From assembly GCF_014279815.1 (NCBI RefSeq), contig NZ_CP047941.1, positions 2,046,001 to 2,110,000 on the forward strand: DNA of 64,000 bases, written 5' to 3'. Of the stretch, positions 3,368 through 5,915 are shown in pieces. This DNA comes from Synechococcus sp. NOUM97013. GTDB taxonomy: Bacteria; Cyanobacteriota; Cyanobacteriia; PCC-6307; Cyanobiaceae. The translations under genes were made by a program, and so were the position numbers. Position 1 is the first letter of the stretch; the number at the start of each line of letters is the position of its first letter. Under the pieces are notes generated by a model. The model had not been told where the DNA came from and searched no databases. It saw only the letters and a list, made by a program, of their open reading frames with translations.

Positions 3368-3733
3368 ATGAAAATCCCCAACACAATCGCAGCCGCTACA
3401 CTTCTCGGAATCTTTTTCCTACCAACAAGACCTGCTGAAGCCAACACATCTGTGATGACAGCAGGCTGGCTTCAAGGTATCAGCGATAAACGCTGTATCG
3501 AAAGAGCAACGAAAGTCGCAAAGATTGCGGGCTTTACGGAATCCAATGAGGTCGTCAGGGGCAAAGGAATGCAAGACTTTTATGGATACACAAAGAAAGG
3601 ACCTTATGCATTAGCGGTCAGCTGCAATTCAGACTATGGCGCCAGCTCATTGGCTGTTAGCGGAATTTCATCCGACGGCGTCTATGAAATGTATAACAAA
3701 GTTTTAAAAGCCTATCAACAAATCGACGAGTAG
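3368..3733 (+). CDS. Small secreted protein of unknown function
   Basis: 121 residues from the ATG at 3368, chosen because it starts a good signal peptide (MKIPNTIAAATLLGIFF, cleavage near PAEA). An upstream ATG at 3326 would put 14 charged residues in front of it. The mature domain has two cysteines (DKRCIERATKV, AVSCNSDYG) and a helix-strand pattern. It ends in a helix (YEMYNKVLKAYQQ). It resembles other small exported picocyanobacterial proteins. A 9-bp inverted repeat follows 22 bases after the stop. Confidence 0.6.
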   Translation: MKIPNTIAAATLLGIFFLPTRPAEANTSVMTAGWLQGISDKRCIERATKVAKIAGFTESNEVVRGKGMQDFYGYTKKGPYALAVSCNSDYGASSLAVSGISSDGVYEMYNKVLKAYQQIDE

Positions 3734-3750
3734 ATGAATCCGAAAATCAC

Positions 3751-3779
3751 AAAAATACCAATCTCCAAACAGATTGGTA
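3751..3779 (-). terminator. Strong hairpin between convergent genes
   Basis: TACCAATCT at 3756-3764 pairs perfectly with AGATTGGTA at 3771-3779 (9 bp, 6-base loop). On the minus strand it is followed by five T (3751-3755). It would end minus-strand transcripts, and it also lies just after the plus-strand gene ending at 3733. Confidence 0.55.
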
Positions 3780-3837
3780 CTGAAAGCGCCTCATAGAGAC
3801 GAACAAACTCATGCCAGAACATCGCATTCGCAGGCAA

Positions 3838-3866
3838 TAAAAAAGACCCACCAACGCTGACGGTGT
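3838..3866 (-). terminator. Terminator downstream of the Nif11-type precursor
   Basis: On the minus strand a short GC stem (CACC at 3862-3865 with GGTG at 3849-3852, loop GTCAGCGTT) is followed by GG, TC and a run of six T ending near 3838. It lies about 90 bases past the end of the precursor-peptide frame and probably terminates its transcript. Confidence 0.5.
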
Positions 3867-3954
3867 CAATATTTTACCGGGAGATAGACAATGATCATCG
3901 AGGCACTCCCTATGACTCCAGAGGCTTAAGTTCGCCAAAAAGCCTGCTCAACTC

Positions 3955-4239
3955 TCATCCCCTGCAAAAAATTCCATATCCACGAGTTGCCCCACAAGCT
4001 CCATTGTATCTGGGATTCGTACCTCCTCCACCATCCACGCCTTCTAGCTCCTCTTCACTGAGTTCAACGATCTTTTCAACGGTGAATTCATGACCATGTT
4101 CTTTAGCGATCGACACCACATCATCTGATGACTTCGCGGCTTTTAGTCGGCCTTGAAGACTGGCATCACACTTAACCTTTTAGAGAAAGGCCTTCAGCTG
4201 CTCTTTCGACATCGTTGGCGTGGTCGCTTCAGCAGTCAT
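3955..4239 (-). pseudogene. Nif11/prochlorosin-type RiPP precursor peptide with one in-frame stop
   Basis: The frame from the ATG at 4239 runs 94 codons to TGA at 3955-3957, with a single TAA (4180-4182) at codon 20. The N terminus reads MSKEQLKAFL, then the stop, then KVKCDASLQGRLKAA. This is the start of a Nif11-type leader, where family members have Glu or Ala at the stop position. The leader continues DDVVSIAKEHGHEF and ends EELEGVDGG, the double-Gly site cut by peptidase-ABC transporters. The core holds TNPRYNGAC and TRGYGIFC, two Thr-to-Cys spans suited to two methyllanthionine rings, as in prochlorosins. No LanM synthetase lies in this window, but in prochlorosin producers precursors are scattered. 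As it stands, only a 19-residue peptide can be made without readthrough. Confidence is high for family, moderate for pseudogene. Confidence 0.75.
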
Positions 4240-4340
4240 AGCAACGGTCGGCAGCGTTTCTCAGCCCCAATGCGTAACACTCAGCCAAACCGAGAAGTCC
4301 CCAATGTTCATCGGGGGCCTCTGGGTTAATCCCAGTCTTC

Positions 4341-5915
4341 CTAAAAACTAAAGCTGGTCTTGATCAAGCCTCCGAGTTGCTGAAAGCTACGCCCTTGTGG
4401 CGTGTTATTTCCCAATGGCCTGCTCAGATAGAAGAGTGCAGGTGTGACGTTAATATTGTCTGTGAGCTGGACTTTATACCACCACTCCCAGGCATAATTG
4501 CCGTCATCGGGCGTGTTGCCACTGTTGAGGCTGGTTGCGAAAGGAGCCTGGCCAACGGCCATTCCCAAGGCGTTCCCCTGGAAGAAAGCATCACTCCATT
4601 CAAGTCCAACGCTCCACGATTGGCTGATACTCACCAGCCCCTCATCGTTCACAGCATTGCTATAAGCAGTGGAATTAATTCCCCAGCCGGTGCTGATCGA
4701 CGGGATCCAGCTCCTTTCAGCGGGTTGCCAGTAAGCACTCAGCCCAAATGCAGAAGTATTGCCCGGATTGCTGAAGCTCTCGAGGGCAAAGTTCGTGGCA
4801 TACACCAACAGATCGTTGGCGTTCTGGATGCTGGAGTAAGTCGCAGCCAGGCCCCACTGCTCAGCCGCATATCCGATCTGAACGGTGCCAGTGCCAGCTG
4901 CTCCATCAGTGGCGATCCCACCGTCTTGTGGGTTTGAGTTCGCCCCATTGGCAGCCACGTAATTGGCACTGATTGCCCATCCGTTCTTCTGCCACCACAG
5001 GCCAGCACCAGCGCCCAGATTTTTGTTGTATGCGCCAGGTGCTCCAGCAAGGGTGAGCACATCCAAAACTGTGCTGGCGGGGTAGAGACTGGGCCAGATG
5101 GCGAGCATGTCTTCCTGCCCGACACGGCCGCCGACGGTGAAGGTGACGTCACCGAATGGGGCTTGATAAAAGAGGCGATCAATCCCCACAACATTCGGTC
5201 CACCTTCCTCTTGAAAGGCCACTTCCAGCGATGACAAACTGCTGGGACCGGCTCCACCAAAACTGTTGGAGTCACCGTCAAAGTTGCCGCTCCGCAAGGT
5301 GGCGCGCAGCAAGTCTTTCCCGGTGAAGCTGGTGTCCAGGTTCAGCTGCAGGTCGTAATTGAACGTAGTTGCACCGAAGATCTGCTTGTTGTCATCCACC
5401 AGCAAATCGGCGCTTCCACTGAAGGTGTTGGCACCAACAACAAAGTTGACGGCTCCATTCAGCTTGGTGGTGGTGGAGAACTGGGTTGCTTCCAGTTCGC
5501 CAACGCGGGCTTCCAGACCGTCCACGCGGCCCTTGAGGATGGCGAGCTCCTTTTCGAACTCCTTCATCAGGCGCTTCAGCTCATCGGTCACTTCGGTGAC
5601 GCGGTCGAGACAAGCGTTCAGCAGTGCGGCCGCTTCAAAGCGGGTCATCGCACGGTTGCCGCGGTAGGTGCCGTTGGGATAGCCAGCGACGCAGCCGTAG
5701 CGCTCGATCAGGTTGCTCAGAGCCTGATAAGCCCAGTCCGTCGGATAGACATCAGAGAACTGAGTGATGCTGGTGACCTGCTCGAGGCTGCTCCCTGAAG
5801 AGCTCGAGGCGTAGTCGGCAACACCGGCAACGTTGACTTCAGTCGCACCGGCGGCCACAGGAGCCAGAAGACCCAGGGCAGCGGGAGCAACCAGCAGTTG
5901 CTTGAAAAGTTTCAT
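4341..5915 (-). CDS. somA: SomA-type outer membrane porin (SLH domain + OprB barrel)
   Basis: 524 residues. Signal peptide 1-24 (MKLFKQLLVAPAALGLL, cleavage near AGA). Residues about 50-110 are an SLH domain (FSDVYPTDWAYQALSNLIER, then MTRFEAAALLNACLDRV) that binds peptidoglycan-linked polymer in cyanobacteria. A coiled coil follows at about 110-145 (ELKRLMKEFEKELAILKGRV). From about 150 there is a beta barrel of the carbohydrate-selective porin (OprB) family, ending in Phe as usual for barrel proteins. The product is expected to be the main outer-membrane channel for small solutes and ions. The start is fixed by the signal peptide. No Shine-Dalgarno precedes it, and the upstream hairpin ends only 10 bases from the ATG. 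Confidence 0.9.
   Translation of the reverse strand: MKLFKQLLVAPAALGLLAPVAAGATEVNVAGVADYASSSSGSSLEQVTSITQFSDVYPTDWAYQALSNLIERYGCVAGYPNGTYRGNRAMTRFEAAALLNACLDRVTEVTDELKRLMKEFEKELAILKGRVDGLEARVGELEATQFSTTTKLNGAVNFVVGANTFSGSADLLVDDNKQIFGATTFNYDLQLNLDTSFTGKDLLRATLRSGNFDGDSNSFGGAGPSSLSSLEVAFQEEGGPNVVGIDRLFYQAPFGDVTFTVGGRVGQEDMLAIWPSLYPASTVLDVLTLAGAPGAYNKNLGAGAGLWWQKNGWAISANYVAANGANSNPQDGGIATDGAAGTGTVQIGYAAEQWGLAATYSSIQNANDLLVYATNFALESFSNPGNTSAFGLSAYWQPAERSWIPSISTGWGINSTAYSNAVNDEGLVSISQSWSVGLEWSDAFFQGNALGMAVGQAPFATSLNSGNTPDDGNYAWEWWYKVQLTDNINVTPALFYLSRPLGNNTPQGRSFQQLGGLIKTSFSF

Follow-up and report, generated by a model that had tools for sequence, protein, structure and literature searches.

A probable, recently inactivated prochlorosin-type precursor gene in a Synechococcus genome that carries LanM enzymes

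Introduction

The prochlorosins and synechococsins (ProcA/SyncA), described from Prochlorococcus MIT9313, Synechococcus MITS9509 and others (PMC10783134), are the closest described counterparts of the locus reported here. Their leaders begin with MS(K/E)EQLKAFL and end in an (E/D)ELExxxGG motif; the core that comes next is short and variable and contains Thr and Cys. Our locus has the same leader start, motif and kind of core. The double-Gly motif (D/E)ELExxxGG is a mark of prochlorosin-type precursors and the CCG motif is the defining mark of ProcM-like enzymes (PMC10783134). Here we analyse a locus in a 64,000-nucleotide stretch of Synechococcus sp. NOUM97013 (contig NZ_CP047941.1, positions 2,046,001 to 2,110,000; hereafter the window), which is very probably a precursor gene of the prochlorosin/synechococsin type that was inactivated recently, in a known birth-and-death family with rapid turnover of its members.

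Results

The minus strand of the window carries a prochlorosin-like precursor pseudogene (Nif11 leader, GG motif) of 85 codons plus TGA with one internal TAA (3955..4212). Read from 4212 to 3955, it gives MSKEQLKAFL*KVKCDASLQGRLKAAKSSDDVVSIAKEHGHEFTVEKIVELSEEELEGVDGG, then the core GGTNPRYNGACGATRGYGIFCRG and the TGA stop (3957-3955). The Nif11-type leader spans codons 1-62 (4027..4212) and ends in EELEGVDGG, the core (3958..4026) contains two Thr and two Cys, and a weak terminator-like stem-loop with a T run lies ~90 nt past the stop on the same strand (3848..3865). With the internal stop scored as X or read through, the leader reached 76.8 bits against the TIGR03798 (Nif11-like leader) profile (cut-off 32.3; E 1e-21), and in a six-frame search of the genome with Pfam Nif11 (PF07862) the locus scored 63.6 bits (cut-off 23.8) with one TAA inside; these profile scores rule out a chance frame. 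An Rfam scan of window positions 3600-4600 gave no match to an RNA element. The TAA at 4182-4180, codon 11, is the sole lesion in the frame, and because of it the locus contains no full-length translatable ORF and was filed as a pseudogene of the family rather than as a working precursor.

A sequence-only reading of this DNA had described the leader, core and single in-frame TAA with the same coordinates, frame and stop, but had opened the frame at 4239. As a TAG stands just before MS(K/E/Q)EQL in four related loci (L015, L018, L036 and L039), in the stretch matching 4239-4213, translation should start at 4212, and 4239-4213 (MTAEATTPT...) is instead upstream sequence. That reading had also derived the stop from GAA. 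The TAA at 4180..4182 is confirmed, whereas its origin from GAA is a putative reconstruction: at this codon most other precursors carry GAA or GAG, with GAA the most frequent (52/111 collected precursors), but the intact homologue described below has GCC. The core could form two methyllanthionine rings, between Thr65 and Cys73 and between Thr76 and Cys83. The leader (4027-4212) also looks mosaic, which suggests recombination between precursors: its first third and the upstream region resemble the MSKEQ group of genomes G253 and G141, the second half is similar to a leader from G253 (SSDDVVSIAKEHGHEFTVDKIAELSEEELE), and the core to that of G141.

Among 300 genomes of the family and 31 of the genus, an identical or near-identical core was found only in G141, a second species, where an intact homologue (MSLEQLKAFLAK...GGGGTNAKYNGACGATHGFGIFCRG; full copy MSLEQLKAFLAKIKVDTSLQEKLKAAKSSDEIVCIAKEHGHEFTADRITELNMDELEGLSGG GGTNAKYNGACGATHGFGIFCRG) lies at C1:1886380-1886646 (L014), as anticipated by the suggestion that relatives would retain an intact copy. 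Its leader belongs to the same family and its core is the same up to four conservative changes, but it has no stop, occupies another chromosomal place as the second gene of a tandem pair, and lacks the upstream element described below. The focal core had no match in named bacterial genomes, viral contigs or phages, a search that may leave out records near the host. A conserved position of the gene is ruled out, as the G141 homologue sits elsewhere. The focal locus is flanked by the genes at window 2794 and 8171, and the matching place in G141 holds three other intact Nif11/GG precursors, indicating that precursors come and go at this site. In G141, too, one precursor (L039, C1:801077-801289) is interrupted by a lone in-frame stop (FGT*HISQL), which falls at another codon than in the focal gene. 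In a separate pair, L006 (G000 C1:1344485) and L085 (G141 C1 about 785-804 kb), the cores are almost letter-for-letter alike (GGCARGTRDTHLARGCGPLDQCQRTALDGGTTTQWWCN vs GGCGRGTRDTHLARGCGPLDQCQRTALDGGTTTQWWCN) despite clearly different leaders.

The focal and G141 copies were compared codon by codon. This revealed 34 identical codons, 28 silent differences and 23 codons differing in residue or stop, with a dN of 0.168 and a dS of 1.61 over the whole gene (dN/dS near 0.1); for the core, which is only 23 codons long, dN was 0.081 and dS was saturated. Flanking genes from the same two genomes gave dS values of 0.30-0.84 (n=5) and the LanM enzyme LanM1, described below, gave 0.455, so that silent divergence between the precursor copies exceeds that between the genomes, yet the core is still nearly the same. 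Such a pattern would be explained by old paralogues, or by exchanged copies, with the peptide kept by selection and the focal copy inactivated afterwards. The low dN relative to dS, core included, indicates that the focal peptide was under purifying selection until recently, and the presence of just one lesion at a dN/dS near 0.1 supports the view of the sequence-only reading that the loss is recent. Under neutrality since the split from G141, at about 0.2 substitutions per site, stops alone would be expected to give 2.2 lesions, and stops together with indels 4.7-7.3. For the same divergence, the probability of one lesion or none is 0.36 for stops alone and 0.05-0.006 when indels are assumed to occur at 5-10% of substitutions. 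The count of stops alone thus leaves neutrality since the species split possible, and with indels the single lesion is decisive about age. Five focal leader residues are rare in the subgroup; since an equal or higher number occurs in some intact leaders, these residues do not date the loss.

The focal stop was seen once, in one assembly of one strain, and a sequencing or assembly error in an intact gene making a normal prochlorosin would agree with a single lesion in an otherwise intact frame, a perfect promoter-like element and a strongly conserved core. We consider such an error improbable, as the genome is a single contig (2,552,712 bases) that is 100% complete and similar nonsense mutations occur in other family members. 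Stops within the first 60 codons, arising by nonsense mutation, frameshift or truncation, were present in 11 of 111 distinct leaders, a set collected from the loci in hand rather than sampled at random, so broken copies are nothing unusual in this precursor family. Readthrough as a general feature of the family was ruled out, because the stops of other copies fall at different codons and are often accompanied by frameshifts.

The proposal that the stop is tolerated gained no positive support. In its most concrete form, translation would re-initiate downstream, for example at GTG 4119, from which the frame is open to the normal stop, yielding a 54-aa product whose leader is a stub of 31 residues, and this short precursor would still be modified and exported. 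The GG protease LahT150 cuts ProcA2.8 lacking 10, 20 or 30 leader residues, and the last 13 suffice (PMC6363468), which speaks for this reading. On the other hand, ProcM binding is owed mainly to the leader (PMC11667668) and the stub is without the first half of the Nif11 helices; moreover, no ribosome-binding site is evident by eye before GTG 4119, and no comparable truncated but intact family was seen, all of which makes re-initiation very unlikely. Both a base error and a tolerated stop are less likely than a recent pseudogene.

The same reading had held that the host or a recent ancestor carried a LanM system, and the genome bears this out. A six-frame profile search gave 27 Nif11 matches, about ten to a dozen of which, counted as search hits, are precursor-like, with a leader, a GG-type motif and a short core (for example GGNWSSCICQDTA, GGNCVTASWFKI and GGGQRDCQVRSSWGRF); several more are truncated or decayed, with decayed copies at 761290, 976591, 1312262 and 1553400. 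Two LanM genes are present, both with the CCG motif (LCCG). LanM1 (C1 about 779.6-783.0 kb; 1123 aa; TIGR03897, 749 bits) stands in a same-strand row with genes for two NHLM-type ABC proteins, of which one carries a C39 peptidase, and with HlyD-like and outer-membrane-efflux-like genes, named by position and size only. It is 87% identical to the LanM of G141. LanM2 (1065 aa; TIGR03897, 474 bits) is very divergent, sharing 24% identity with LanM1, and has no close counterpart by score or identity among the genus genomes searched. It corresponds to L049:5606-8803 (G000 C1 about 2.312-2.317 Mb), and a 203-aa NHLP-leader RiPP precursor lies upstream at 4412-5023 of that locus. Two C39-ABC exporters were found, at C1:775318 beside LanM1 and at C1:1526499 (in a pair at 1.526 Mb). 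The presence of a second enzyme of this kind beside an NHLP-leader gene would accommodate a focal precursor serving LanM2 or a non-lanthipeptide Nif11 route; as the LanM2 neighbour is an NHLP and not a Nif11 precursor, and G141 has the same core with a LanM1-type enzyme only, we give this little credence, and recognition of the intact precursor by LanM1 is predicted instead. Of the 31 genus genomes, 13 carry LanM; the system is therefore patchily distributed but not rare, and together with the fairly common broken precursors this means that the rarity implied by the sequence-only reading was overstated.

Upstream of the gene lies an element, GCCGACCGTTGCTATGAC (4235..4252, minus strand), that is common to precursor genes of this genome and of the genus and resembles an extended -10 (TGC TATGAC at 4243-4235). 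A possible, weak -35-like hexamer, CTGAGA (4259..4264, minus strand), lies 18 nt upstream of TATGAC, below the level of a strict promoter scan; that scan omits the element because TATGAC lacks the final T. The focal gene has in common with other precursors a stretch that begins near 4258, 46 bases ahead of the ATG, and ends near 4025 at the GG motif; beyond it the cores differ. Six sites in the genome match GCCGACCGTTGCTATGAC with at most one mismatch, all directly before Nif11 precursor genes, and two of them, including the focal one, are perfect; five further sites in the genome carry three mismatches, no more than expected by chance (6 in a reversed-pattern control). Apart from the focal site, the six copies of the element (GCYGACCGTTGCTATGAC) before precursor genes lie at G000 C1:1041980, 1041583, 1345094, 1474539 and 1494934. 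Across the genus-wide set, TGCTATRA lies 30-34 nt before the start in 47 of 111 precursors (0.3 in shuffles), and in 34 of these 47 the hexamer 17 nt further upstream matches TTGACA at no fewer than three of six positions. The element therefore looks like an extended -10 promoter that would move with the leader. No earlier report of it was found in the literature searched, which did not include the principal account of how this family evolved.

Discussion

We propose that a ProcM-like LanM, encoded at another place in the genome, would bind the Nif11 leader of the intact focal precursor, dehydrate both Thr of the core and use both Cys to close two thioether rings; a C39-ABC exporter would then cut behind Gly-Gly and export the product. 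The nonsense mutation at codon 11 would end translation after ten residues, so that no modified peptide is expected from this gene, even though its promoter-like element is still perfect despite the break. The locus would thus capture an early stage of gene loss in a host whose lanthipeptide system is working. As the core is kept in a second species over saturated synonymous divergence, it is a candidate for a prochlorosin whose function is genuine and selected.

Whether the scattered precursors are expressed together could be addressed simply through the upstream element that they share. A broader reading, which we put forward only tentatively, is that leader and dedicated promoter (an extended -10, TGCTATRAY, about 30 nt before the ATG) form one travelling cassette. 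Dozens of scattered precursors might then be one co-expressed set, with new or decayed members findable by the promoter alone; the focal locus might still be transcribed though untranslated, and its core might be an old selected product and not freely varying.

Compared with ProcA/SyncA, the focal gene is similarly scattered away from the LanM gene, but its leader is broken by the TAA at codon 11 and its core is common to another species, whereas most cores here are unique. The CCG zinc motif of the ProcM/SyncM-type LanM recurs in both LanM1 and LanM2 of this genome; the LanM genes lie outside the window, and LanM2 is a divergent second enzyme beside an NHLP-leader gene.
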